From assembly GCF_019649055.1 (NCBI RefSeq), contig NW_026570224.1:620001-684000 (forward strand): 64,000 bases of DNA. The letters are read 5' to 3'. The stretch is from Paramacrobiotus metropolitanus. Lineage: Eukaryota; Tardigrada; Eutardigrada; Parachela; Macrobiotidae. Made by a program: the position numbers and the translations under genes. Below the pieces are notes generated by a model, which saw only the letters and a list, made by a program, of their open reading frames with translations, did not search any database and was not told the origin of the DNA. Shown here piece after piece: positions 5,700 through 52,771 of the stretch (its first letter is position 1; each line of letters starts with the position of its first letter).

Positions 5700-6865
5700 A
5701 CAATGGTGCTAGGTAGGTCACCCACTAAGAACTTAGCGGGCCCTCTTCTATTTTGCTCAGTAATATTGCAGTTTGGTCATACGTTCACCTAACGGGATCT
5801 ATGCACTGGACAGTAGTTGTAACTCGGTCACTAGATCACTTAACGGAGTTTATGCGCTAGACAGTAGTGGTAGCTCGGTCCCTAGAGCATTTAACGAAAT
5901 TCGTGCACTGGACAACAGTGGTAGCTCGGTCACGCGTTCACCTAAGGGGCTCTGTGCCCTGGACAATAGTGGTAGCTCGGTTACCCATCTACCTAACGGG
6001 ATCTATGCACTGGACAGTAGAGATAGCTCGGTCACTATATCACTTAACGGAGTTTGTGCACTGGACAGCAGTGGTAGCTCGGTCACGCGTTCACGTAAGG
6101 GGCTCTGTGCCCTGGACAATAGTGGTAGCTCGGTCACTAGATCACTTAACGGAGTTCGTGCACTGGACAGTAGTGGTAGTTCGGTCACGCATTCACCTAA
6201 CGGGCTCTGTGCACTGGACAGTATTGGTAGCTCGGTCACCCATCTACCTAACGGGATCTATGCACTGGACAGTATTGGTAGCTCGGTCACCAATCTACCT
6301 AACGGGATCTATGCACTGGACAGTATTGGTAGCTCGGTCAGCCATCTACATAACGGGATCTATGCACTGGACAGTAGTGGTAGCTCGGTCACTAGATCAC
6401 TTAACGGAGTTTGTGCACTGGACAGTAGTGGTATCTCGGTCATTCTTTCACCTAACGGGTTCTGGGCACTGGACAGTGGTGGTAGCTCGGTCACTTACTG
6501 ACCTAGCAATTTTTTGAAGCACTCAATCACTAGGTGAGTGACTGACCGAGCTCCACCTGTCCAGTAAGGAAAATCGCTGGGTAAGGAGAAAAATCGCTAC
6601 TCGTAGGTGAGGAAGTGACCCTGCTACAACTACTGTCCAGTGCACAGAGCCCGTTAGGTGAGCAAGAGCAAAGCCCGCTCGATGACTCACTCACCTAGAA
6701 TTCCGCTCAGTGGGCAGTTATGGTGTTTCGGTCACTCACTTGTCTAGAGATTTTTCGTACTGGTCAGTGGTGGTAGCTCGGTCACCCACTCATCTAGAGA
6801 TTCCGCTCAGTGGTCGGTGATAGTGTTTCGGTCACTCACTCGTCCAGTGATTTTTCGTATTGATT
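5700..6865. repeat. complex minisatellite, 51-bp unit with inverted copies
   Basis: The core at about 5773-6500 holds some 14 tandem copies of a 51-bp unit of the form GGTAGCTCGGTCAC..TTCACCTAACGG..., followed by ..TGTGCACTGGACAGTAGT. Copies differ by scattered substitutions and show almost no indels. From about 6530 to 6690 the same motifs occur on the opposite strand (for example CTACTGTCCAGTGCACAGAGCC near 6628). From about 6700 to 6860 they return in the forward orientation, organised as about 100-bp higher units (CTAGA.ATTCCGCTCAGTGG). Because 51 is divisible by three, long reading frames appear on both strands. I read these as a by-product and not as genes. Confidence 0.9.
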
Positions 6866-28700: not shown

Positions 28701-31283
28701 GGAAAGAGCGATATTGGTGAGCGGAAATTTTGTTAAAACATTTCTGATGTCCATATGCGTAACTAAACTACTAAACACTATACTAAACTAAACTAATTCT
28801 CCAACAAATTTAGTAGCTAATGTGTACCAATTTTTTTCTAGTATCTTTTCCTTACAATTAAACTGTTGCCTGTTTTCGCAAATTTAGGACAGGACGCTAA
28901 GAAAGACATTGAAGAATAAATGGTTGTGTAATTTCTGTACATTCTGTAGCGCTCGACGAATTTTCCTTCTCCGAAGGAAGGTGCACAGATACCGGTCCAC
29001 ATCCAGTTTTCATGTGTGATAACGACATAATGATCGAAGGATGGAAACAGTGCGATAATCGTGTCGACTGCACTAACGGCAACGATGAACGGAACTGCGG
29101 AAACTGTGGCTTCGAGAACGATCTGTGCGGTTACACGGTATTCCAAAACAGCAACTACACCTGGACCCGGGTTCCATCAGGATTCGCCGGCGCACCAGTC
29201 CCGACGAACACCGTGGAAGGCAGTCGGTACTATATGTTAGCAGATAACAAAGATGGACCAGATCGTTCAGCTGCCTACCTCGACAGTCCCATCATCCGTC
29301 AGACATCCAAAACCTGCAGACTGCAGTTCTGGACGTACGTCTATTCCCTGGAAGGAGATCCGGGTGCGATGATTGTGACACTACGCAGCGGCGATAGCGA
29401 CGTGACCATTGCCATTTTCGACCATAATACGGGAGTGAAAAATCACTGGAATTTGTGGATTGTGGATGTCGGACGTCATAGCGGTGAATTCCGGATTGTT
29501 TTCCGCGCGCGAAAAGGTTCCGAGACGAATGGAAGCATCGGTGTGGATGAGGTCATATTTAAGGATTGTGGTTTTCCGGAACGGCAGGCGTCCTGTGGTG
29601 CCAACGAGTGGCAGTGTCCGCAGAGCGGAGCATGTATCATCCCCACGGAATTCATGTGCGATTTCGCCGATGACTGTGGCTACTACGAAGACGAACAAAA
29701 CTGCCGGCAATCCCATCCGTTCCGATGTGATTTTGACGACGATTTCTGTGACTGGACGCAAGATGCCGGGGATAACTTTGATTGGCTCAGGACGAATTAT
29801 CGTACTTTAAGCGGTGCGTTTAACAGTTTGTGATTTTATGAATTTTTATCAAATCGTTTCTAAGTTTGTGCAATTGTGTTTAGGTTATACGGGACCGATT
29901 CGAGACCACACAACCGGACTGCGCAATGGCGGATTCATTTACGCCAGTTCCACATTCTACAACATTTCGTCCGGTTGGTCGGGAAATCGTGGCCGGTTAC
30001 TATCGCGACCACTGACATTCACTAATGATTGCATACTGCGATTTTATCGTCATATGTACGGGAATACGATGGGAGCCTTGAGAGTCTTTAGACTCGGTTC
30101 ATCTGCCGAGTTATTTATTGACAACGTCGGTCTAGGCGATAAATGGGTTAAGTCTGTGGTGCGCATTGGTGGTCCAGCCGCCAACATCAGGGTCGTCCTG
30201 GAAGCTCAACTCGGTGGTCTGGCTAGTGATATTGTAAGTGTTCCCTTTCACTCTTTACGAACCATATTTGTATAAAAGATTTTCAGGCGGTGGACGATAT
30301 TTCATTCAGCGGTTCGTGTTTCAACCAACCTGACGTGGTAACGCTGCCGCCCACCACAACAACAACAATGGCGCCAACCACAACCGCACCTTCGACGATT
30401 TCCACAGGGTCCAGATCCACAGCCACAACGGCATCCTCCTCGACTACCTCTTCGTCCACCAGCACGACTTCCTCGACGACACGGTCGAGCACGCAGTCTC
30501 CTTCCTCTACAGTTGCACCGGTCAGCCGCTCATCGACTTCAGCGCCACCACTACCGACCACTTCCGCAGGCAGTACCACGACACATTCACAACTGACCTG
30601 TCCTGACCGATTCTGTGCGACCAGTCGGGTGTGTCTGGAGCAGAGCGCCATCTGCGATGGGAAGAAGGACTGTGAGGACGGTTTTGATGAGGCCAACTGC
30701 CCAACGGCCTCACCCGCGAGCGGACTGGATCCGGGAGCCATTGCGGGGATAGTGATTGCGGTGCTAGCTGCTGTAGGAGCGGCAGGAGCTGGTGCATATG
30801 TTGTGATATATAGGAGGAGAAAACAGAATGGAACGGAGCGCAGTACCCTTGGTTATGCGACATTCGGTGCACTGGATGGACCGGCGGATGAGGACAGTGA
30901 CCATGTCGGGAATAAAGTTCTCCATGATGTAAGTACCGTTTATTTACCGATGACGTTCGCTGGTTTTTAAACCCATGTTTTTTGGTTTTGGAAAAACCCG
31001 GTAAACCGTAAAGCATTTCACTTCTAATGGCTGGCCCTTTAGTGTCCATATTAAAATTGACTCTTAGTTTATTATCTAGTAACTGTACAATGTACATTGT
31101 AGTGATTGTACATATGTAATATTAATTCGTAAATCGTATTTATAGTTATGAAGTTTTACTTCTACAAAGGCATGCATCGATTATTTCTTTGGGACTGAAA
31201 TTTTCGTTCCTGTTCTACTTTCAGGATGTTTTGGATCCTGATAACATAATTTTTTTTTTCAGATATTTTCAAAGGATCTGTGA
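7734..31283 (+). CDS. giant MAM/LDLa-domain single-pass membrane protein
   Basis: A multi-exon gene encodes very roughly 4,900 residues. Exon 1 (7734-7791) encodes a signal peptide, MAWLGLLILGASLLAGNAL, and ends in phase 1. Exon 2 begins at 7883 and joins in frame. The ectodomain is about 28 MAM domains, each with the family pattern C-x-F-(E/D)..(L/M)C.W near its start, a C(L/V).F(W/Y)Y stretch in the middle and (A/V)(I/V)DD(I/V)....C at its end. Three LDLa modules lie at about 28990-29096, 29591-29692 and 30599-30700. A Ser/Thr stalk, a TM helix (30738-30806) and a basic, stop-terminated tail follow. MAM domains mediate adhesion or homo-oligomerisation and LDLa modules bind Ca2+ and ligands. 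A role at an epithelial or cuticular surface is inference. MALRD1-type and apical endosomal glycoproteins share the modules but are smaller. Apparent frame breaks occur near 9365 and 18640. The final exon (31263-31283) was chosen for its strong acceptor. Confidence 0.85.
7883..12150 (+). other. MAM block A (domains 1-5)
   Basis: MAM1 is about 7883-8872, MAM2 9129-9829, MAM3 9951-10679, MAM4 10876-11460 and MAM5 11546-12060. A Pro-rich linker (APPIAAPLPIEEVPEE) at about 10750-10803 follows domain 3, and a Thr-rich linker (VTTTTTPATTT) follows domain 5. Each domain is spread over two to four exons except MAM5, which is uninterrupted. Domain boundaries such as the one after MAM1 are phase 1, as in shuffled extracellular modules. 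MAM2 shows a reading-frame discontinuity near a T6 run at about 9363-9370. Confidence 0.8.
12150..16090 (+). other. MAM block B (domains 6-10)
   Basis: MAM6 is about 12150-12776, MAM7 13081-13796, MAM8 13797-14430, MAM9 14636-15226 and MAM10 15415-15999. Position by position these resemble block A. MAM8 matches MAM3 (CMTF..(F/Y)(F/I)N..GAA..R(V/I)HQV), and the Pro linker PMDSVPIPTVQPP at about 14500-14550 matches the one after MAM3. MAM10 matches MAM5 and is followed by a Thr-rich linker (ATTRRTTTLGTTT). Confidence 0.8.
15252..15286. repeat. perfect 16-bp inverted repeat in a MAM intron
   Basis: GGCGAATACGGTACAT, a 3-base AAT spacer and its exact reverse complement form a strong hairpin in the intron after MAM9. 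The stem extends by about five more pairs with one mismatch. Confidence 0.9.
16090..19860 (+). other. MAM block C (domains 11-15)
   Basis: MAM11 is about 16093-16788, MAM12 16857-17499, MAM13 17500-18130, MAM14 18340-18918 and MAM15 19124-19770. This is the third copy of the five-domain block. MAM13 repeats MAM3/8, the linker PADALPIPTVTPSVED at about 18193-18246 repeats the post-3/8 linker, and MAM15 repeats MAM5/10 (NFEHGMCNWENYYDG) with a Thr linker after it. MAM14 has an apparent one-base frame break near 18640. Confidence 0.8.
19860..24055 (+). other. MAM block D (domains 16-20, divergent)
   Basis: MAM16 is about 19860-20512, MAM17 20625-21222 (the least typical, with weak central Cys/Trp pattern), MAM18 21460-22175, MAM19 22180-23085 and MAM20 23093-23915. 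A long Thr/Pro linker at about 21290-21400 follows domain 17, and a Thr/Pro linker (LPTTPPPTTLQPTQ) follows domain 20, keeping the five-domain spacing of Thr linkers. Domain-by-domain similarity to blocks A-C is no longer obvious. Confidence 0.65.
24055..30330 (+). other. C-terminal MAM domains 21-28 with two LDLa modules
   Basis: MAM21 is about 24055-24840, MAM22 24961-25640, MAM23 25641-26612, MAM24 26830-27510, MAM25 27511-28240, MAM26 28245-28990, MAM27 29100-29575 and MAM28 29730-30330. The LDLa after MAM26 (28990-29096) has only five of six Cys; the third is missing. The LDLa after MAM27 (29591-29692) has all six and the acidic Ca2+ motif region DFADDC..EDEQNC. Exon boundaries in MAM21 and MAM23 are my best in-frame choices and could be off by an alternative acceptor. 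Confidence 0.7.
25852..25921. repeat. 35-bp perfect tandem duplication in a MAM intron
   Basis: A 35-base unit beginning TTTTAACCGTTGAGTCCGCT occurs twice in immediate succession in the intron of MAM23. It is followed by a low-complexity T/A tract at about 25950-26010. Confidence 0.9.
30331..30930 (+). other. Ser/Thr stalk, LDLa, TM helix and cytoplasmic tail of the MAM protein
   Basis: After MAM28 come about 80 residues that are mostly Thr and Ser (mucin-like, probably O-glycosylated). A complete six-Cys LDLa (ending CDGKKDCEDGFDEANC) follows. Next is a hydrophobic Ala/Gly/Val/Ile helix (AIAGIVIAVLAAVGAAGAGA) and then the stop-transfer YRRRKQ. This fixes a type I topology with a short acidic cytoplasmic tail. 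Confidence 0.85.
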
Positions 31284-33600
31284 TTTCGGCTTCGGGAGAT
31301 GGGCGAATAAGAGGGCGTTATATAACAAGCAATATTTGATTTTTTTTTCAAATTTTCACTATTTTTGTCGGTATTAATAGTGAGGGTGCTGAAAGCTAAG
31401 CCCTTGCTGTTGTGTTTTTGTGTACAAATGCTGTTGGACTGCGTTAATAATATGCAAATTAGCATGTGCAATAAATTACTTGAAACAAATCGATATACAA
31501 CCGTTACCTATCGACGCTGGGCATACGGTGGCGCCTGACCAAAATGGAAAAAATACTGCACTCGTTGTATAAGTGGTAAAATTAGGGCTGTATCCCAATT
31601 GTATGAGCACCATTATGGATTCAGTCCATAAATGCGCAGCACTGACGATACCGTACATGATCGGGCGAGACAATCTCCATAATGCGAGCCGGAAGGGATA
31701 TTGATACACCAATTATCAAAACCACGGTGTCCAATTTTATGGTTTTTCATCGCTTCCTCGCCGTAATGGTTTCCTCGGGATGTGGCGTGAACTTTTTTGG
31801 TGTATTGTTGATACGAGTATTAAAACGGGATTGAATTACTACCGGCATACCACCGGTACGGGCATACATTAGTGTCCACCGGCATTTGTGCGCAGTATGA
31901 AATACAATATGCGCTCATGATCGCCGACATAGTATGACCATCAGGCGCAGTTATTAATATTATTGTGGAATATCCATGCATATGCCTAGTATTGTTTGAG
32001 CCTTGCCAAACGGTAACGTGGTTCTATGCGTGTTTTATCATATAATCGTGTTCCAAGCTTTTCCACTTCCGGTCTATGGTGAAATTGCCGATGTTAAATG
32101 CCATTTAAGATACTCCCACGATTTTTGGTCGGTTTCGATCACGTTTAAGAATTAGTCCGGTTACTCCGGTATACATTTATATGCTGTGAAATCTGTTATC
32201 AAGTACAGTACATTATTCTGTCGCGCATTTGATGTTTGCGTTATGAGATCTTTCAAAGAAAATGAGTACGAGGTAAGTATCTGTACGACGCTACGCTTTT
32301 ACTGCAGTACGATATTTTAATTGATAATTGATATCTTCTCCGACCGCGAGAATGTCTGAACGAAATCCGTGCAATGTAACATGGAACCCCTTTACCAGCA
32401 ATATTTAAAGAAAGCAGCTGTAATCATATTTGACATTAGAAAATTTCATTATGATTGTACTTTAAATTCCGACGATTGGCTTAATTTACCTTACTAACCG
32501 ACAATCAAGAAAGGATTTAATTACTTAGATCAAGTTCGGCACATGAAAATATGCACACCTCAGGCATTTCTATTCGTTCTTTAAAATACATCCTGAAATC
32601 ATTTTCGGTTTGCTGCGAGCGTTGCATAAACTATATTTTAATAATCTGTTTTTATATATTGATTTCCACAAAGGATGTTAATTTATCGCTATGAGGTGTA
32701 CCATAACTGCCAGTTTATGGATATCCTACTATTCTTCAGATATGTGGGCACCGTATGCAGGAAATGTGAATGTACATGTGTATGTATGTGTGTATAAGAC
32801 TTAGTATGTTTTGTATTTTCAGGCCGTATGACCCAAGCAACAAAACCAATTAGTACGAATTCCAGAATTCGCAATCCAATCCGCGCTAAGTTCCCGTATC
32901 AACTTTGACGAACTGGCTCATCATATGTTACATAAAAATTTCTTCTCTAAATGTGTTGGGTGCCGACGCTATGTATGTTGTTATTTGCTGCGAATTAGAT
33001 ATCCAGTGCCGCATCAAAAGAGTTACTAAATTGTGTTGGACAGTAAAGTTGTGATTTCTTCGCAGACGGTGTACGTATGCCGGTACGCATGACGTACTTA
33101 CCATTAGCCTGCGAGTACAGTAGTCTATCACAATCTTCCGATCCGTCGTCCAGTAACCTTTCCTGGTGCAGTAGATGCGTGTGAATCAGTCGATATTACC
33201 TTCGTTAGCGTCTTTATTGAGGTTCCTAGAACGGAACTTTTCATACGACTACGATGGGTACTGTGTTGTCATATCTGTTTAGGTATCACATCGGCGAGAA
33301 ACCTGCAACATCCGGAATTCGATACCCACATGCCACAGCTAATCTTGACCTTTTTCCTTTACATTTCTAGTACTAGGGATACTATTGTTATGCCTTTGCT
33401 GTATGCACTACTCGAGTGGTATCTCGAGTTGCATGCTAATGATTTAATGTCATCTGACGTATCCCGTTCATCAACCTGCAACTGCGTATCCCCATCCAGG
33501 AAATTGCAGATTAATTAATTTTGCATCAAATTACTCACACCGCTGGAAATTCTCACTGATTTTGTGGAAGCAACAAAAAAAAACCACCACATCACTCACG
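31284..33600. other. intergenic between the MAM gene and the guanylyl cyclase
   Basis: AT-rich, with the MAM 3' UTR and poly(A) signal at its left end and a short TG-rich microsatellite-like tract at about 32766-32795. No supported exon was found. Short minus-strand open frames near 31620-31800 lack homology. Confidence 0.45.
31470..31475 (+). promoter_or_regulatory. poly(A) signal AATAAA for the MAM gene
   Basis: AATAAA lies about 190 bases after the proposed stop codon and just before the end of recognisable transcription-unit sequence. It is the only canonical hexamer near this 3' end. Confidence 0.55.
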
Positions 33601-36600
33601 ATGCAAGGCTGGGTCACGATAATTTTGTTCAGCGTCGGTTTTCTGCCAAATTTACCGGCGCCGACACAGTCGTCGCGTGTCAACATTGTCTCATTCGCCT
33701 ACGCCGGCAAAGAGGCCAGTCAGGGCAACGCGGCCATTGTACCGACCATCGATGTGGCCATTGAGCGGTCTAAGCAGCAGTATCCCAATGTTTTTAGCAA
33801 TATCCACTGGATATCTAAAGCCTCACCGTACAACGGGAGCAATATTGCTCCGTGTGATGCAGCTGAAGATTCGGCTATTAGCGAAGGTGTCGCACAGTGG
33901 CTGAATGCATCCAGTGTTTTCTATGGAAGATTGGACTTCTCAGGCCGCAATCAATCAGGATTAACTGTTTTTGTGACCTCAGGTATCATGGTTGTCATAT
34001 CGGCTATTTCAATATTGGCTATTATATATCGGCTATTTTATTTTACGCATAAAGACAATCGTACTGAATATATGTATATACCTTTTTCGATAACAATTTG
34101 TTTACCTGCAATCGATTTCAGCATGCTACCGAGCGTTTTCGATTTTGGGAGACATTGGTAGAGGTACGAAAAAGACTCACAAAAAAGTTCTGGTAGAAAA
34201 AAATAAATATCAGTATCGTAAAAAGCTGTAAACATGGGATGACCTTTGTTATTGCTGCTTTCACAGAACTCGATGTACTAGCGATAGCATGGTAAGAACT
34301 ACGAAAATATAATTAACATGATTTTGTACTGTGCCATTAATTGAGGTAAAACTCAGTTAGTGAACTGCGACAAGAAAGTTTTTCGTAGCGGGACGTTTGA
34401 CGAAAAAATGAGTGATAAAAGCCGGTATCCTTCCGTGCTGGCGTTTGGCGCTCTGTCTGTCACTCAAATGGCGTCGTCGTTGTCCGCCTTTATGGACCAG
34501 TATCACTGGCAGTCCATTGTCGCTGTGTCGGATACGCTTTCCAAAGGGGCAGACTTGTTTAACAGATATAACTCCATGTGTATCGGTTCGTTAAAAATGC
34601 TGGAAGGTCGCATGCAGAATGGCACAATGCAGTTCTTGCGAATACCGATTGATTCCGATGCAGCTGGGTTTGAATGGCCGTCAGTATTGTGGCAAATATC
34701 CAACTTTAGTCGAAGTATGGCTCATTATGCAAATTTTGCAGCTTTATTAAAATTAATGCCCTTCCCCGTGTATGTGGATGATTATATCCAATGCACTTTT
34801 CTTTGCAGTTGTTCTGTTGTGTACAACTACGAGAGTGCAGAGGACGTTTCTGGTAAATCAATGTATTCGCAAGAGATGAAAAAAAATGTCGCAAATGTTG
34901 TTATTTACATGCTGAAAAGAAGTTGCGTAACTTTGGCAAAAATCAACGGTATTTCGTTAAAGGTTTTTTTGTCATACGAGTACTAACAAACCGTTACAAA
35001 AGTACTGTATGTTTTTTTCTGCAGTCTGCCGCCTACGAAAATAACATGGCTAACGGAGACTATGTAAGCGAACCGATCAACTGAACTTGATCTTGACTTT
35101 TTTAATTGTTGCATGATTTTATACGGCCCTAAAGTCATATGTTTCATAATTAGGTATTCATAAGCCCTTTCATTGGATCTGTTCCAAAGGATTTAGCTCT
35201 CAAATGGAACCGTAACGAATCCATCGACCAGGTATGTACGAGTAGCACAGCACAGTATGTTATACACAATATATTTGAAGTTTAGGGTTAACAATACGTA
35301 TATATCGTAATAAGTGTCACACAATATTTTTATAGAATGTGAGAAAAGCTCTGCCAAATGTTTTCATCTTTCGGCATCCCCCTGTAAACTGGACAAAAAT
35401 AGAAGATGTTACCGATGCTATAATTGATCGCCGCATAGAGTATTATCATGAATCTTACGAGACAGCAAGTTTTTATAGAGTAAGTAATTGCAGATATATG
35501 TCTATGCCATACCAAGTCTGTACTCTAGGGGTGTAACCCCTAGAATACAGTCTCGGCCGTATAGTTAATCTGCTACTTTCCCTTTCATTCTTTGTTATCA
35601 CCAATTACTTTGTACATCGGTATACGCGCGTATTTTTGCAGGAAAATGACTTGTCACTTAGCTGCTTGGAAGCGGTAGAAGCTCTGGCTGAGGTAAATGG
35701 AATAAAAAATATATTTATTTATTTCGCTGGATCATCCAATCTAATTTTTACGTAATCCTTGCAGGTACTTAATGAAACTTACACTTCGCTGCCGGATTAC
35801 ATTAGTGGAAAGGAGTTTGCTCGGCGGTTTTTTAATAAATCCATAGAAATAGAAACACGGAAACTGACAATTTCGCCTAGCGGAAGTCGGCAGACTGTGT
35901 TAGAGGTTGTACAGTACGACGTCAACAAGAAAGATTTCGAGGTAATAATCAGCTATGGCGTTAAAAGAAGCTTCAAAACCAACATATACATATATCTAAC
36001 ATTTTCCGCAGACCGTCTATGTGACTGATCCAGTCACAAGAAGACTGGTGGCAGTCAAAGGCGCAGTTATAGAATGGAAAGGAAAAGAAGTTCCACGCGA
36101 TCGTCCAGCGTGTGGGCTTCATGGCGAATACTGCATCGACCATACGTATCAAAATATGATAATCGAGGCGGTCGTGGGAGCATTTCTAGCCATCGCGGCT
36201 ATCGCGGTTGTCGTGGTCTTAAGACTGAAGTAGGCCTGTGAATGAATGACCTTTACTGTAACTCGCGGCACAATTAAAAGATGCAAGCGTTTCCAGAAGT
36301 TTTTTAAAATTTAAATAATTACTTTATATCACAGACTAACCTTAGTTTGATTTTGTAGCCGGCAACGTCGCGAAGCTGAATTGTTATCTCAATGGTGGCG
36401 CGTAGATTTCGCTGATCTGTCAACGCTGCCCGTATCCACTGTGCACGGCGCAACATCACTCTATGCTTCCCAAGCAGTGTTTAGCCCCGCATATCAACAG
36501 ACAACTATCAAAGAGACTCTAACTGCAAAAAACAACACAAACAGTCATCGGCTGGCAATATTTAATGAGCGCATGGTGTGGACTACCTGCTTTGTAATTC

Positions 36601-39600
36601 CAACGGAAAAGGAGAAGCAGAGCATTATTGTGCCCAACAGAACATTTCTCAAGTTTATGCGAAAGGTCATTAACAAGGCGTGCAAAAGTTACAAGTAATC
36701 TATGTTAAGATTTTGTATAGTTTAAATCTGGAAGTTCGTAAACTCCTTGTTTAACAATTGTATTTAGAAGTCTCCATTCTAGCCACATTTTGATGTTTCC
36801 GAACATAATATTAATTTTAACTACCGGTTTTTGCAGCTTCACACAGTACAACATCGACACATCAATGATTTTGTGGGAGCATGTTTGGAAAAAGAGTACA
36901 ATTTTGTGGAAGAATATCGAAAGAAAGGATCCATCTATGACATGAATCAAAGCAGTTTTTCAAAAGGGAGCAGCGGTTTTGACTGGGACATGAAATTCTC
37001 CTTTCTCGTTGACCTTGCGGATGTGAGTAAAGTTAGCGTTTGATTACCAATGCATGGTAACTATTCCAAGGTATAGAGATGAAATCTTGTCGGTTAACCT
37101 CGCCCACATTTTGGCAGGCTCTGCGCTTTCTGCATAGTTCGCAAATAAAGTTCCATGGAAATCTGAAAAGTACGAAATGCCTGTTGGATAATTACTTCAC
37201 GCTGAAGCTGTCGGATGTAGGCAACGAGCGCATGTGGTGCTACTTAAGCCGGCGTGCACAGTGCCCGGCATCTGTCTATTATACGCTATGGACGGCTCCG
37301 GAAGTGCTGCGTGGTGGGATGCCATCGGAACAAAGCGACATATATACATACGGAATAATTGCTGTTGAAATCTTCACACAATCCGGGCCATTTAATACAA
37401 AAACTTTGCACCCTGCGGACCTCGAATGTAAGACGCAGAATTTAATAATGTTGTGTAGAGAGACATGCTAGTCACGTCCAATTATAACCAATTAAAGAAA
37501 ACCTTTTTTCTTATGTTTAATAACTGTTCTTGCGCGGGTGAAAACACGTATACGATTACACTTCCTCCGGGAATTATGCAGTTCCGTATCTGAGAGAATT
37601 CCAGCTGTGCTATTGCTCCTATAGTGTCGCAATAAATACTAGGACATATTAAAATGTATTAATTTTATTAATCTACTGCACTGATTTTGCTTCTTGTGTT
37701 AATTTGTTTATCGTATTAATTCTGCTTTTCAAACTTGGTCGTCCCTTTTACATGACCATTCTTTAGTAATATTACTATAGGTACAATACATGCAGTGGTT
37801 TTAAGTTAAGCTGATGTGTGCTGAGGCTGCATGCAACAAATCGATTTTAGCAGCATTTTCATTCATCATCAAAAAAAGCCCATTCTTTACCTGTCTTAAT
37901 TAGTGTCTGAGTAAATAGTTATTACCAAAATGGTCCAAGAGCTATACTTTTACAAGCAAGTTTATGTTACATGATTTACATCTGATTGCTACGCTAACAA
38001 TCTTTTCCTCTGCATTTCTAGCAATGGTGGAAAAAGTTAAAAAAAATACTGAAGAATTTCCATTTCGGCCTTCGCTGGAGAGTCTGCAACTCATTCCGGC
38101 AGCCGAGAGTGCATTCAAAACGTTTCTTCAGGGATGTTGGGCAGAAAATCCCGATGACCGGTTCACGATGCGGCAGGCTGGGACGAAACTGGATACTGTT
38201 ATGGAACAATTGAAAATGCGAACAAAGGGATCACTTTTTGATCGTTTAATGCGACGCCTTAACGCTCATGCTCGAACGCTGGAGCATACTGTAGCTGAAA
38301 GAACACAGGAGCTGATTGAGGAACGAAACCATTGCGATATGCTTTTGAAAGAGATGCTTCCGAAGTAAATTTATAACACATGTGTATATATATAAATAGT
38401 GCAAAATAATTATCTCATAAAACTTATTATGCAGTTTCAGGTGTAACACACACATATACATAGGCTTTGTATTTTTGTAGGGAGATTCTGAAACAATTAC
38501 GAGCCGGTCAGATTGTGCACCCCGAACACTTTGAATGTGCCACAATATACTTCAGTTCAATCTTCGGATTCCTAAATTTTGCTATTTCATCTCCTCCTAT
38601 GACTGTCATCCAGTTTCTTAACGGTGTCTATTTGGAATTCGATGTCAGTATTGATGGACTAGAAGTCTACAAGGTGGAAACAATCAGCGACTCGTACATG
38701 GTTAGAAAGATTGACCTTTACGAATAATATAGCGTTGCGTACTTCCGCTTTTTTAAAGCAACATTTACATTGAATTTAAAAAATTATAATCATAATAGCA
38801 GTTATGTTGCCAAAATCGTTTGTAAATTGTAAATTGTACTGTTTGTAAATTGTAGGTGTGCAGTGGTTTGCCTACGCGTACATTCAACAACATCCATGCC
38901 GCTCATGTTTGTGAAATGGCTCTGATATTGCAGAGTCGATTCGCTGTTAAGTTCAGCCAAACGCAGTTGCAGCTCCGTGTCGGTATAAACTCAGGTACTC
39001 GTATCAAGCAATTAATTATACAATTTTATGCACTCATGATATGCACTAATGACGTAATTATTATCAACTTGCACAACTTGCACAAACTTGCACAACTTGC
39101 ACAAAACGTTGACGCAATTATTATCAACATTTTGTGCAAGTTAAATCATTCTATAAGAAATCAGGAATGTGGAAACGCGAAGTCAGGATCCACAGAATGG
39201 CTGTTGTACGAAAGGGCGGAATTTTTTAAAGACTGCTGTATTTTACAGCGTAAAATATCTATATCGTGGCATAAAGTAATAACTAACACGCGTGCACCTG
39301 TAGCTTATCTGTAAGTTCAGCTTGCCTTTGATACGAATTGTTTTCAGGTCCCGTGGTGGCTGGTGTAGTGGGGCTGAAGTGTCCTCGGTATTGCCTGTAA
39401 GAAAAAATAAAAATTAAAGAGTGGTCATTCTTTTAGTCAGTGTTAGTTATGTTTTTATTCCGAGCACACTGCTTCCGCGTGTAAAAAATAACTGGCAATA
39501 CAATAGTAATAGTGATGCGAAAACTACATAGTACAGTACCATAATTACAACTGCATAATAATGTATTCGGCAGTTAGATTGTTCTTTACGGCATGCGTTC

Positions 39601-46383: not shown

Positions 46384-47057
46384 GATGCAGATCGGCCCCT
46401 TGTATACGCAGGTTTGTATACAATATTTCATTTTACTGCTCATGCCGATCTGTACAGTGGCGGTGTGAAGGCTAGCTATCCGTATTATACATTGACGGCG
46501 CGCGTGCTCAATTAGAGTATCATAAATCTCTCGCATATTGTACAATGGCAATTTTTCAATCAACGTGTGGAGCCAGTTTTTGCGTTGCACTGTTGTAGGA
46601 TCTAGGGATTGGTTTGTACATGTAAATGCACCGCCCCCACACACTGGTTAGCCAGCAAAAACAACTGGAGCAGTGTTAAGAAATGGACTGGTCAGCCAAC
46701 AGGACTATCCCCGACGACGGGGAGGGCTCTAAGTTGCATATTATGTCCATGTCTATATAAAATGCCGCTGTACTATAACCTCATGGAATGTTAGATTGTT
46801 TGTGAGAATACTATATGCTCGTGCGTAAACTTTGAGTTGGAATTAAGGTGGGAGCATTTCAAAATGAAGTATATAACTTAACCCTCATCTCTTAATGTCT
46901 ATCAGTCTAGTGCATACATACCTGCCTTGGTCTCATTGGACGCTAATTCCAATCGGTCAGGAATACTTGTTTATTGCGGTACATCACCGCATTATATCTG
47001 TACACCCTTGCCTAATAAGCCGCCGAATCTTGATTTGCCACAAGCCGCTATACCACG

Positions 47058-47114: not shown

Positions 47115-49878
47115 ATGGAGCTAAGGCTCATCCTGGTACGTGTGACCTTTACCCATGTAGTAATAGTCATAATTTATGTTTTGCACTTATCGTATGTTAA
47201 TTTTTTAGAAAAATTATGAAATAATTTTTGATGCGGCACACGCCACTAACAAACTAGCAGAACAGTTCAAGATTTCCGTAGCATGCTGGCGTTTGTGCGC
47301 TACGCCTGTATTAAGTGGTTTACTTATGTCCTTATTGTCTCATTATCTATTCTATTTGGCTTTAATCTGTTAGCCGTGAAAAGTCATTCGTTTGCATAGT
47401 GAGCTCACCTCACCATTGATCCATTCGATTATGCTAATTATTGTCGGCATGTATAATGCGCTTATTAACATTGGAATTTGTAATTGTACCATTTTTTCTT
47501 TTATACAGTTATTGTTATTCCTCTCCACATCACATTTCCACCATGTTATTTCCGCCGCCGTTAGACCCAAACACGACCCCAGATTATCCCTCATAGCGAC
47601 GGAAGAACCCGTTCCTCCCACCAAACAATCAGCACCGACATCGACAGCTAGTCAAAGAGATGCCATATCAGCCTTAGCCAAGCAGCTGACCAGTCAAATA
47701 ACCAGCCAATTACAGGCTAATCAAGTTGTTATTGGAACACCCGTCGGCGGCGTCCCGCCGACCGTTATTCAAGGTACACCAGTAGCAGGAAGTGTGATAC
47801 AGGGCGTTCCCGTTGGCTCGTACGGTACCGGTGGCGGCTACGGGGGTTACGGATCCAGCTACGGTGGTGGCGGTTACGGTGGCGGCGGTTACGGTGGTGG
47901 CGGTTACGGTGGTGGCGGTTACGGTAGCGGTGGTTACGGTGGCGGGGGTTACACCAATCCGTATTCATACTACGGAGGAAGTGGATATGGAGGTTATGGA
48001 GGTGGTGGATACGGAAGCTATGGCGGTTACGGAGGATACGGTGGAGGGGGTTACGGATCCTTTGGATCCGGTAACGTTATTGTCGGCACCCCCGTGGCTG
48101 GCACCGGAGGAGTGGTGGTTGGGACCCCCGTAGCAGGCGTAGCAGGCGCAGCAGCTGGTTTAGTGGCAGCCGGGACTACCAACGTAGCAGCAGTGCCAAT
48201 TGATCCAACTACAACAGATGAGATTGATCGCGCCCTCAACGTGGCACTCAATGCCATTGCTAGCGGCGGCGGCTTAACGTCGCGCCAAACCTCTAACCCT
48301 ATTTCCGTTACAGTCACAACCGGCACAGCGGCTGGCTCAACCTTAACTGATCGTCAGAACGTGATTGTGGGAACACCTACGGGAACCACCGGCAACGTTA
48401 TTGTGGGAACACCAGTCGGCTATGGTACTACCGGTACTTTCGGAGGCACGTACGGAAGTGGCTTCGGAGGCTACGGAAGTTACGGAAACACCGGCAATGT
48501 TATTGTTGGGACCCCCGTCGGCACCGGAAACGTTGTTGTTGGCACACCGGTTGGCACTGGGACGACCGGCAACGTAATCGTCGGAACACCGGTCACAGGC
48601 ACCACCGGCAATGTCATCGTTGGCACGCCGGTTGGAGGCGGTTACGGAGGCGGAGGCTACGGCGGCTATGGTGGAGGCGGCTACGGAGGGGGCGGTTACG
48701 GTGGATACGGCGGTGGTGGAGGCTTCTATGGGGGGAATTCGGGCTACGGAGGGTATGGTGGTGGATACGGCTCTGGCGGATATGGCGGCGGTCTCTATGG
48801 CGGGGGCTACGGCGGCGGAGGCTACGGTGGTGGCGGATACGGCGGGTTGAGTTCGGGATACGGTGGTTATGGAGGTGGTGGTTATGGCGGCGGTGGTTAT
48901 GGCGGTTATTCTGGAGGCTACGCGCCGTACGCAAGCTCCGGATACGGTGGCTATGGAGGTGGCGGCTACGGCGGCGGTGGTTATGGTGGCGGCGGCTATG
49001 GCGGAGGCGGATACGGTACTAATTCATACGGCAATAGTGGACTTTACGGAACGGGCGGTTACGGCGCCCTGGGAAGCAGTGGGAATGTGATTGTTGGCAC
49101 ACCAGTTGCAGGCACAGGAACAGGAGGAGTGGTTGTCGGCACCCCTGTTGCAGGAACAGGAGCAGTGGCAGGACAAGTAATAACTCAAGCACAATTAGCG
49201 GCAACACTTCCAGTTGATCCTGTAGCAGGAGTAGATGAAATTGACCGTGCACTTGCGACAGGTCAAGGCCAATTATCCTTCATGCCCACTCAAGGCCAGG
49301 GCACTTCGTCATCGTCCGTTCTGTCAAGCCCATTAGCCCGTCAATTTGCTATTAATACCGTGGTAGGAACGCCAGTCGCCGGCTCATCAACCGGTAATGT
49401 CATTGTAGGAACGCCAATTGGCGGCGGTTATGGCGGCTACGGCGGTAGCAGCGGTTATGGTGGATATGGTAATACCGGCTACGGCGGCGGCGGTTATGGA
49501 TTGAACCAGTATGGAGGCGGCGGTCTGTACGGTGGTGGATACGGAGGCGGCGGTTATGGTGGTGGGGGATATGGTGGTTATGGCGGATATGGTGGTGGCG
49601 GTTACGGAGGTGGCGGATACGGTGGCTATGGAGGATATGGTTACCGGTCCGGTTCATCGAAATCCAGCTCGAGCAGCTCCAGTTCCCCGTCTTCATCGTC
49701 CCCATCCAGCTCCGCTTCGTCATCCAGTGCGTCGTCATACCGACCGCCATACGGAGCGATCTCAAGTTCGTACAGGCAGTCCGGCAGCAGCAGTAGCAGC
49801 AGCAGTCCCGGCGCTCAAACGTATCCATCGTCATCGCAGTTTTATAAATCACAACTTTCGTCCTATGGGAAATATTAA
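47115..49878 (+). CDS. secreted Gly/Tyr-rich structural protein with VIVGTPV motifs
   Basis: Exon 1 (47115-47135) encodes MELRLIL and ends at a gtacgt donor. Exon 2 (47509-49878) opens with LLLFLSTSHFHHVISA, so only the spliced form yields a complete signal peptide. This is why I reject the longer unspliced frame starting at 47392. The product is 796 aa. The mature chain alternates GGY-type blocks (GGGGYGGGGYGG and variants) with hydrophobic motifs NVIVGTPV(A/G)GT. I count 12 GTPV plus one GTPT and one GTPI. A DEIDRAL motif occurs twice (near 48220 and 49236). The C-terminus is Ser-rich (SSKSSSSSSSSPSSSS) and ends SSYGKY. There are no Cys in the repeats. GGY repeats occur in cuticle, silk, eggshell and adhesive proteins, where Tyr can cross-link. 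An extracellular structural role is inference. I do not recognise the family. Confidence 0.88.
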
Positions 49879-51407
49879 GTTATTTAACTAAATCTGTTGA
49901 TTAATCGTTTTTTACTTGGTTCAGTATACAAGAAAAATTTCTTCCAGTTTTGACAGTTTTGCTCGTTGGTGTACAAAATGCCAAAATGAAACTTTTTGTA
50001 CAGGCCGGGTTTTTTTTCCAAGCGCGATATGTCTTTGCTGTTTTTTGATTCGTCGTGTTATATTTAAAAATGCCAAATACAGTCGCTGTTCTGGTTAATG
50101 TAATAATCTTTTATATGTAAGCGCCCACTTCTATATGTGCCTTTGCATTATCATTATTTTTGCACTTTTAGCAATACAATAGGTTTGTATGGACAATGTC
50201 CGCTCAATATCAGGAATGGTTTCAATATCATTGTGCCATCATAAGTACCTGACCATTGTCACAAAGCGTTAAATCTATAACGTTTCATTATTGAACGAAA
50301 AACAACCCATCACCGCTGCAATCATCTACACACTTCTTAATTAGCAAACGGTGTCAGCCAAAAAAACAGCACAGTAAAAACAAAACGCGTAACAAAAGCG
50401 CTGATCATCTAGGCAATCAACGTTGTGCAGGTTACCGTATCTAATTTCAAAATGCCATTAACAACAATTAGACTGTTATGTTAACAAAAGCGTGGCTGTA
50501 TTCGCCGGCCGCGTTGGAAATTCATGCTGTATCTGAATAACGCAACATGACGTTATGGGTTACGAGTGGAGGTTATCGCGAGAAAATATCCAATTAATCA
50601 AAATAATAAAAATGTAGTGAAGTAACACTTTCAGCTGAAAATCTGGTACATCACAAAATGCCGTTAATATCGTTCTTACAAAGCCATGAAAACAGCGTTG
50701 AACATGACCGTTCATAACGACATTCTCGAAACCCAAAAAACCTAATTGTAAACAAGTCTACGTTTTAATCTTCAACATTGATACCTAAATTACTTACTCT
50801 CAATGCTACTGTAGCACAATGGCATCCGATAATAATAACAATAAAAAATTGCAATCAACAACGGCTCACCAATACGTCCTTACAACCAGGTGCCCACAAG
50901 GCAGTAAGTGTACAGCAGCTCATGCGAAATTGCAGACGGCCCAATACAATGGTTAATCAAGTTGCGTGGTTACTTTGTAAAAATTTCAGCAATCAGAATA
51001 CTGACTGAAAATTAATATCTAATACGGTTTTTGCAGACAGGGCATCCGTTTAACTGCAGTACGTATACTTAGTAGTCCGTTTCTTTACTAACACATACTG
51101 CCAAAACAAAGTAAGTGATAACATCATACTGCAATATGCAGAGCCTCACAGAAACATGTGCGTATGAAAACATGACCTTGTAATTTTTTGATAAAAAGCC
51201 GGTATCTCACGGTAAAATGCGCAGTACACAGATACATTAGAAAGTATGCGAGGACAAACCATAAAAAAATCTAGTTTAATTTACGATAAAAATGCATGCT
51301 CGTGAGAACGATACAGAACCTCAGGGAATCGGGAATTTTTGTAGTACTCGTACACATGCTTTAACTTTCTGACATACTCCTGCGGCGCAAAGCGTTAACG
51401 TTCGACA
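49879..51407. other. AT-rich intergenic region
   Basis: About 1.5 kb between the Gly-rich and SOCS-box genes. I see no exon, RNA gene or clear poly(A) signal. It should contain the Gly-rich 3' UTR and the promoter of the next gene. Confidence 0.45.
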
Positions 51408-52771
51408 ATGTCACAAGGACAGTTAGTCGGACAGCCGAGCGCCATTGTCCGCGCCAGCGCCCTTCATCGATCAAGCTCGCGGTTTTTCCGGTCGAGTAGC
51501 GCACAGCGTACTCCGGGCGATGTGTTTGAGCTGATGTCGCTGCAGGAACTCTGCAAGCGTTGCATCCTCCGACAGTTCGGCATTGAGAACATCCAGCACT
51601 TGGAGTTCATCCGCATCCCCCGACGAATCCGATCCTACCTCAAGAAAATCCCTACAGAATACTTTATCAAGCCAGACAATTTTGGCTGGTTGCACTATCT
51701 AAATCACTTCACTCTGCGCAATATCCATGCCGCCGAATGCCTGCTGGATCGCCGAATCTATACCGTCAAAATGGTGTCATCCACATTCGTCTTGCCCAGT
51801 GCAACTGTTGAGGCATGGAAAGCCATTCGCCACCCTAACATCATGCAGTACATCACAACAGTACGGGAAGTTCCGCCATGGCGGATTTACCACATTTTCC
51901 AAGGCACCAGCATGTCCCTGCGTGTCTGCGACGAACTGAAAACATGCCGAAAACTAATCATTCCGGAGTTGCTTTTATGGGATGTAATCGAAAAGGTCGT
52001 ACTCGGTCTGATCCATATTCATCATAATCGCCGATTGGTTTATAACAACTTCAGTTTGGACCATATTTATTACGCCCTCGATGGCTGTCAGTTGCTCCTC
52101 GAAAACCCCTTACTTCATGATTTTCCCAATCTTTCTTCGCAGGTATCGATATTAACTTTGATTTTGGATTACGGCGAGAGCATACTATTTACATACGAGA
52201 GCATACTATTTACATACGGCTAGTGATTTTATAATACTCAATTTTAATTATTCAGATTCCGCGGAGCTCGGGTCACTATCGACCGCCGCCCTACGTGGTG
52301 GTCACCGATCTCGACGGCGCCCTGCCCGGCGGCCACGATCCGCTTTTCGACATATCTCCGGATTATTATCTCAAAGAATCCGAGAGACGCGCTGTGCAGT
52401 GCTTGGGTAGAATACTGGACAAGTTATCACTGCCGGCCGATGCATCCACCGCGCTGTTCGGACAATCTAACGGCAATCGTAGGGAACAATCAGCACAAGT
52501 GCAGCGAGCCGTCCGAGCTGTGCATTATTCCAAGCGCCTAATTTCCCTGGTTGAGAGCATGCGTGCCGCGCGGGACACAACGGAGTGGCCGAGATTTTTG
52601 GATATCTATGATACGGTGAAGGAAGCACGTCAGGTCTTTCAAATGGCGCTAGCGGGACGCCATCCTATGACAATTATGGAGTATGTGCGACCGGAAGAAG
52701 GCCCGGTGCCGTTGATCAGGCGATATCTTTCACCGTGGACCGAAGCAGATGAAGATGAATTACAATCATAA
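51408..52771 (+). CDS. SOCS-box pseudokinase
   Basis: There are two exons, 51408-52142 and 52256-52771 (phase 0), giving 416 aa. Residues 44-80 read like a SOCS box: SLQELCKRCILRQFG, then IRIPRRIRSYLK, matching the family pattern LQ.LC+..I...IP..L+.YL. That box recruits elongin B/C and cullin-5 for ubiquitination. From about 105 onward the protein looks kinase-like: YTVKMV (candidate beta-3 Lys121), RHPNIMQYI, then LLLWDVIEKVVLGLIHIHHN like helix E. The catalytic loop is VYNNFSLDHI instead of HRD....N, and no DFG is visible, so it should be inactive. The second exon continues a helical C-lobe. The usual order in SOCS proteins is substrate domain first and SOCS box last, so this arrangement is unusual. 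A divergent SCY1-like or NEK-like kinase is the alternative for the second half. Confidence 0.75.
52175..52216. repeat. 21-bp perfect tandem duplication at an intron
   Basis: CGAGAGCATACTATTTACATA occurs twice in immediate succession inside the single intron of the SOCS-pseudokinase gene. Confidence 0.9.

Follow-up and report, generated by a model that had tools for sequence, protein, structure and literature searches.

A putative secreted silk-like protein with alternating valine motifs and Gly-Tyr arrays in the tardigrade Paramacrobiotus metropolitanus

What kind of protein is encoded by a gene in which short valine-rich motifs alternate with long glycine-tyrosine arrays? The locus that raises this question lies in a 64,000-nucleotide stretch of Paramacrobiotus metropolitanus DNA (contig NW_026570224.1, positions 620,001 to 684,000; hereafter the window, whose numbering is used throughout). 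An initial annotation had proposed a secreted protein of block-copolymer-like design, reminiscent of silk, glue or eggshell. Our analysis favors, with a probability of roughly 0.6, a natural block copolymer that is secreted and serves as a structural component of some extracellular material, be it cuticle, eggshell or hardened gland secretion. The most likely identity is a lineage-specific silk-like structural protein, presumably of cuticle, eggshell or glue.

The predicted gene occupies the + strand and consists of two exons (47115-47135 and 47509-49878), which join into one open frame of 796 amino acids; the model is a prediction from sequence. TATA-like strings are present at 46754 and 46870, and candidate 3′ strings at 50076 and 50173 (AATACA) and at 50605 and 50840 (AATAAA), all of them string matches only. 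A pattern search in all six frames of the window found repeated GGY or valine-type GTP motifs in no other gene. The gene and its product are divided as follows:

47115..47135, + strand: exon 1, with ATG at 47115, encoding MELRLIL, the opening of a signal-peptide-like segment; donor GT at 47136, phase-0 join with exon 2
47136..47508, + strand: predicted phase-0 intron, GT...AG, with a T-rich 3′ end (TTTTTTCTTTTATACAG); a sequence-based prediction
47509..49878, + strand: exon 2, completing the 796 residues
47509..47556, + strand: rest of the signal-peptide-like segment, residues 8-23, from hydropathy; cleavage site placed by eye
47557..47724, + strand: N-terminal block, residues 24-79 (56 residues), defined by composition, without Gly or Tyr
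47647-47718, + strand: predicted helix of the N-terminal block, residues 54-77 (AlphaFold2, block mean pLDDT 91-92 over local residues 31-50)
47725..47817, + strand: valine-motif cluster 0, residues 80-110, with VVIGTPV, VIQGTPV and VIQGVPV
47818..48066, + strand: GGY array 1, residues 111-193 (83 residues), without Val or Ile
48070..48420, + strand: module A, comprising a valine-motif pair (195-216), a spacer (217-290) and a second valine-motif pair (292-310)
48421..48636, + strand: short Gly-rich stretch with one GGY, and a cluster of four valine motifs with cores at residues 341, 352, 366 and 379
48637..49077, + strand: GGY array 2, residues 384-530 (147 residues), without Val or Ile, up to 69% Gly per 80 residues
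49081..49419, + strand: module B, a duplicate of module A, comprising a valine-motif pair (532-556), a spacer (557-621) with DEIDRAL at residue 583, and a second valine-motif pair (622-644)
49420..49638, + strand: GGY array 3, residues 645-717 (73 residues), without Val or Ile
49639..49878, + strand: Ser-rich tail, residues 718-796, with 41 Ser and 8 Tyr among 79 residues and the C-terminus ...SSYGKY, followed by the stop

The repeats are far from what the composition alone would yield. The mature part of the protein contains 12 matches to [VI]VGTP[VIT], whereas shuffling its residues 10,000 times gave 0.0021 matches on average and never more than 1. GTPV itself is found in exactly 12 copies, the number originally claimed, and the wider core G[TV]P[VIT] in 15. 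The same annotation placed most of these motifs within a longer consensus, (N)VIVGTPV(A/G)GT; here the GTPV repeats stand, and the consensus was overstated, as exact VIVGTPV is present in six copies, GTPV[AG]GT in three and the combined VIVGTPV[AG]GT in two. The product further contains 50 copies of GGY, including 23 of GGGGY. Read along the chain, the succession of motifs and GGY units breaks into 8 runs, whereas 10,000 shuffles gave at least 13 (mean 24.1), in agreement with the proposed alternation of valine motifs with long GGGGY arrays. Spacing, described as ordered, is so inside the clusters, where motifs follow one another at 10-14 residues; between clusters it is irregular (34, 76, 83, 94 and 158 residues). 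The Ser-rich tail ending in Tyr was also found as described.

The two kinds of block are cleanly segregated: within limits set by hand by the analyst, the three GGY arrays contain no Val or Ile in 303 residues. The mature chain (773 residues) is composed of 34.3% Gly, 11.3% Ser and 10.3% Tyr, the richest 80-residue window, at residue 383, reaching 68.75% Gly and the best 28-residue window 78.6%. Cys and Trp are absent from the mature chain, His occurs once, and there are 6 Lys in the chain. Segregation, run number and Gly content together uphold the block-copolymer design originally assigned to the protein and its likeness in composition to silk.

The duplicated module and the predicted helices are additions to the initial annotation. 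Modules A (about residues 195-310) and B (about 532-645) align locally with a score of 272. Their spacers alone score 68, a value reached in 0 of 5000 shuffles (maximum 58) and, in a separate set, in 0 of 2000. The modules are thus duplicates, each consisting of valine motifs, a DEIDRAL spacer and valine motifs again, with a GGY array downstream; in the spacer of module A, DEIDRAL lies at residue 244. No homology of the N-terminal block to the spacers of A or B was detected (scores reached by 3357 of 5000 and 4381 of 5000 shuffles), so the order of blocks that is seen three times in the protein is a likeness of layout rather than demonstrated descent. Besides the helix of the N-terminal block, AlphaFold2 weakly predicts one in the spacer of module A (residues 243-258, block means 62-66). 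The hydrophobic moment of this helix is reached by about 1% of shuffles, that of the matching stretch in B by 11% and that of the N-terminal helix by 24-32%. In view of these values a coiled-coil reading was dropped.

The N-terminal segment MELRLILLLLFLSTSHFHHVISA is likely a signal peptide. Its hydropathy is 1.62 over residues 5-23, and both this value and inspection by eye, applied to a chain whose exon 1 is itself predicted, support the signal-peptide-like start that had been placed ahead of the repeats. The beta tendency ascribed to the valine motifs is weakly supported: motif cores account for 27 of the 30 five-residue windows with the highest Chou-Fasman beta propensity, and single-sequence AlphaFold2 predicted no strands in residues 195-391, where its mean pLDDT of 38.5 says little either way. 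What stands of the 'beta-prone' description is therefore a propensity, not a predicted strand. A beta-solenoid, as the 11-14 residue motif spacing might suggest, likewise received no AlphaFold2 strand in this region, at very low confidence, and as a model it is unsupported rather than refuted.

Searches of family and structure databases returned no convincing relative. With exon 2 as the query, Pfam gave no family at E up to 0.01; when four pieces were searched with the limit relaxed to E 10, the sole match was DUF7055 (E 3.2), whose 8 bits fall far short of the family's cut-off of 27.6, and Pfam found no chitin-binding or other cuticle domain. NCBIfam, a library built for prokaryotes, gave nothing at E up to 1. 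In the PDB, exon 2 had no match at E 0.001, and two matches of the N-terminal piece (E 7.4 and 9) were dismissed as chance. With residues 196-391 as the query, the four-motif cluster matched eight chains named Cake2-Cake10 (E 0.012 to 0.27). These chains we take to be designed repeat beta-propellers; kinship with them was rejected, and the weak match (best E 0.012) was attributed to a common repetitive beta-like composition. The 117 residues of module A yielded 424 pattern stretches in prokaryotic contigs and 145 in viral contigs, none of which was confirmed by tblastn at E 1e-3. This is expected for an animal gene, and for the same reason the negative result does not bear on novelty among animals.

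The strings VIVGTPV, VGTPVAG, VGTPVGT and IVGTPVG do not occur in the searched literature. GGY strings matched four papers, three of them concerned, by their titles, with DNA methylation and one with tarantula toxins, and among the matches listed for tardigrade cuticle and eggshell proteins none was recognised as describing the present protein. The view that VIVGTPV lies outside known families thus held against Pfam, NCBIfam, the PDB and, for these four strings, the literature. The kind of protein is well known; it is the valine motif itself that is absent from the searched literature.

The closest class by description is that of silk-like structural proteins. In the excerpted text of McDougall et al. 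2016 (PMC4944945), secreted proteins whose Gly content reaches 25% or more over some stretch of 80 residues are tied to biological materials, and most silk-like structural proteins are described as restricted to one lineage. The SilkSlider procedure asks for a signal peptide, at least 25% Gly in 80 residues, no transmembrane segment (by TMHMM) after the signal peptide and manufacture by a tissue that builds a biological material; for Gly, the present protein reaches 68.75% at residue 383, and for the transmembrane segment, three windows within residues 208-228 exceed a Kyte-Doolittle hydropathy of 1.6. The class as described there (PMC4944945) resembles our protein in Gly far above 25% in 80 residues, in modularity and in the lack of a recognised domain, and the start of our protein is at least signal-peptide-like; the class is set by composition rather than descent, and VIVGTPV and DEIDRAL lie outside its definition. 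Motifs of elastin and spidroins are not a feature of the protein, which has no VPGVG-type motif, no GPGG and one AAA.

In suckerins, beta blocks are rich in Ala, Thr, Val, Ser and His, and amorphous blocks in Gly, Tyr and Leu. The blocks described here differ in consisting of Val, Ile, Gly, Thr and Pro with few Ala or Ser, in a mature chain with 1 His and with predicted helices. The block-copolymer layout of these squid sucker ring tooth proteins, as given in the excerpt of PMC4595719, is found here as well, the beta blocks here being such by propensity only. There is no sign of common descent, and suckerins are set beside the present protein by description, not by sequence.

Among ecdysozoans, nematode epicuticlins are called intrinsically disordered, and dityrosine was shown in nematode cuticlin layers, according to the excerpted part of PMC9612446. 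Epicuticlins and the arthropod GYR/YLP cuticle proteins treated in that excerpt (PMC9612446) resemble our protein in being secreted, repetitive, Tyr-rich and of ecdysozoan cuticle. The epicuticlin repeats described there are Ala/Pro-rich with GYR and YGD (PMC9612446), whereas the present protein has GYR once (residue 718) and neither YGD nor YLP; Pfam gave no match of the tail to the GYR family at E up to 10. By analogy, and as far as the excerpt extends, cross-linking through Tyr has a precedent among ecdysozoan cuticles in the epicuticlins (PMC9612446). The C. elegans pharyngeal cuticle proteins APPG and IDPA-C, compared by description from an excerpt of PMC9629831, are likewise low-complexity and secreted, with predicted phase separation and setting into a cuticle. 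Cysteines are discussed in that excerpt as possible cross-links (PMC9629831), in contrast to the Cys-free mature chain reported here. For histidine-rich GHGLY-type peptides, excerpted text of PMC10766971 reports that Tyr stacking stabilises droplets; the GGY arrays are devoid of His, and the likeness is an analogy only.

We suggest the following route from this chain to a material. The signal peptide would direct the protein out of the cell, where valine motifs may pair into small beta-type contacts acting as physical cross-links. The GGGGY and GGY arrays would be disordered and flexible and could attract one another through Tyr, and oxidative Tyr-Tyr bonds might then fix them. With no Cys and 6 Lys in the chain, no other covalent route is obvious. 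Extra sites for self-association or partner binding may come from the short helices and the Ser-rich tail, and the whole would assemble into a solid extracellular material. A bolder version makes this a new multi-block material protein, in which a helix or DEIDRAL spacer, a valine sticker (VIVGTPV) and a Gly-Tyr spring follow one another in fixed order three times, so that a single Cys-free chain would combine two separate types of physical cross-link, one through beta stickers and one through helix contacts, with covalent Tyr-Tyr links, the valine motif being a previously undescribed sticker. We offer this version as doubtful speculation.

Several other readings deserve weighing. The locus could be an artefact, namely a GC-rich minisatellite carrying a chance open frame, and array 1 lends itself to this idea: part of it (47860-47952) is a clean 15-bp DNA repeat with 6.2 copies and 91% matches, and among its GGGGY copies the fraction of differing third positions is only 0.38. 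The corresponding values are, however, 0.67 in array 2 and 0.60 in array 3; over all 23 GGGGY copies 0.597 of third positions differ, against 0.652 expected for a random draw from the gene's own codon usage. Among valine motifs, the 66 pairs formed by 12 copies gave pS 0.742 and pN 0.135, a set taken from 15 copies with the three most N-terminal and more divergent ones omitted. Codon choice in the motifs is nearly random and the residues are kept; such conservation of amino acids over almost saturated synonymous sites suggests selection on the protein pattern. This behavior of the motifs and of arrays 2 and 3, together with the 26 and 22 stops that interrupt the two alternative frames of the spliced coding sequence, argues against a minisatellite, a reading that is disfavoured and barely credible. 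The low third-position difference of array 1 indicates a more recent expansion of this array, in agreement with the 15-bp repeat, which is likely a site of length variation between individuals. Exon 1 being a prediction, one could also imagine that a wrong exon created the apparent signal peptide of an intracellular Gly-Tyr low-complexity protein, and GY-rich disordered domains do occur in RNA-binding proteins. Nevertheless, the hydrophobic LLLFLSTSHFHHVISA is located in exon 2. If the intron is not removed, the frame extends upstream to 47380 and includes Met codons at 47431 and 47449, and a start at either Met again gives a hydrophobic N-terminus. Pfam detected no RNA-binding or other domain, and we judge an intracellular protein to be most improbable.

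A membrane-anchored surface protein would place a transmembrane or membrane-associated segment around residues 208-228 of module A. Three overlapping 19-residue windows starting at 208-210 indeed have Kyte-Doolittle values of 1.76-1.89, above 1.6 and above the signal-peptide window (1.62). Yet this stretch is mostly Gly, Ala and Val with Pro and forms half of a duplicated valine-motif element, and its counterpart in module B attains only 1.40. The duplicates thus do not share this hydrophobicity, an argument against a conserved membrane segment, and an anchor is very unlikely. Secreted and GGY-rich proteins can also be precursors of Gly/Tyr-rich antimicrobial or neuropeptide-like peptides, of which nematode YGGW-type peptides are an example. 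Here the arrays run unbroken for 73-147 residues, the mature chain lacks dibasic sites, and R-x-[KR]-R is absent from the protein as a whole, which leaves this reading disfavoured, with next to no probability. A secreted gland adhesive or cement would share the same anatomy and differ in its use from a cuticle or eggshell protein. Comparable are the glycine-rich tick cement proteins described in excerpts of PMC11772090 and PMC2901319, which resemble our protein, by description, in being secreted, Gly-rich and structural or adhesive. The Gly- and Tyr-rich composition fits glue equally well, and the sequence holds nothing that separates glue from cuticle; Pfam, on the other hand, recognised no tick-type family. 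We consider a gland adhesive conceivable, at clearly unfavorable odds.

If the product is a structural protein of an outer material, as we prefer to read it, it adds a clean block design free of Cys, in which the defined valine sticker and the duplicated spacer module could be examined as separate peptides, and would represent another independent origin of silk-like proteins. The present gene alone leaves the general understanding of silk-like proteins unchanged. The newness of the motif was judged on Pfam, NCBIfam, the PDB and the literature, and eukaryotic proteomes are needed before the motif is called new.

The gene has neighbors in the window with animal-type domains recognised by Pfam: MAM, LDL-receptor class A, SOCS box, STAS and sulfate permease. 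A tandem DNA repeat at 5764-6517 (+ strand) is open in two overlapping frames of about 245 and 218 codons, one of which encodes LNGVYALDSSGSSVTRS-like repeats. The region 33448-39314 (+ strand) includes a kinase-domain piece at 37061-37468 (Pfam E 2.6e-13) and looks, on visual inspection, like a receptor guanylyl cyclase; for its upstream piece (33448-34158) Pfam gave no family supporting this reading. At 51408-52220 (+ strand), a SOCS box (Pfam E 1.7e-5) stands in the same frame ahead of a kinase-like stretch, whose best PDB match is Nek7 (E 0.0031; Pfam Pkinase only at E 0.12); this order, with the SOCS box on the N-terminal side, seems unusual. Finally, many open stretches between about 8000 and 31000 (+ strand) appear MAM-like by eye, the piece 28913-29830 containing MAM (Pfam E 3.1e-26) and LDL-receptor class A domains, and this region is probably one very large multi-MAM receptor.
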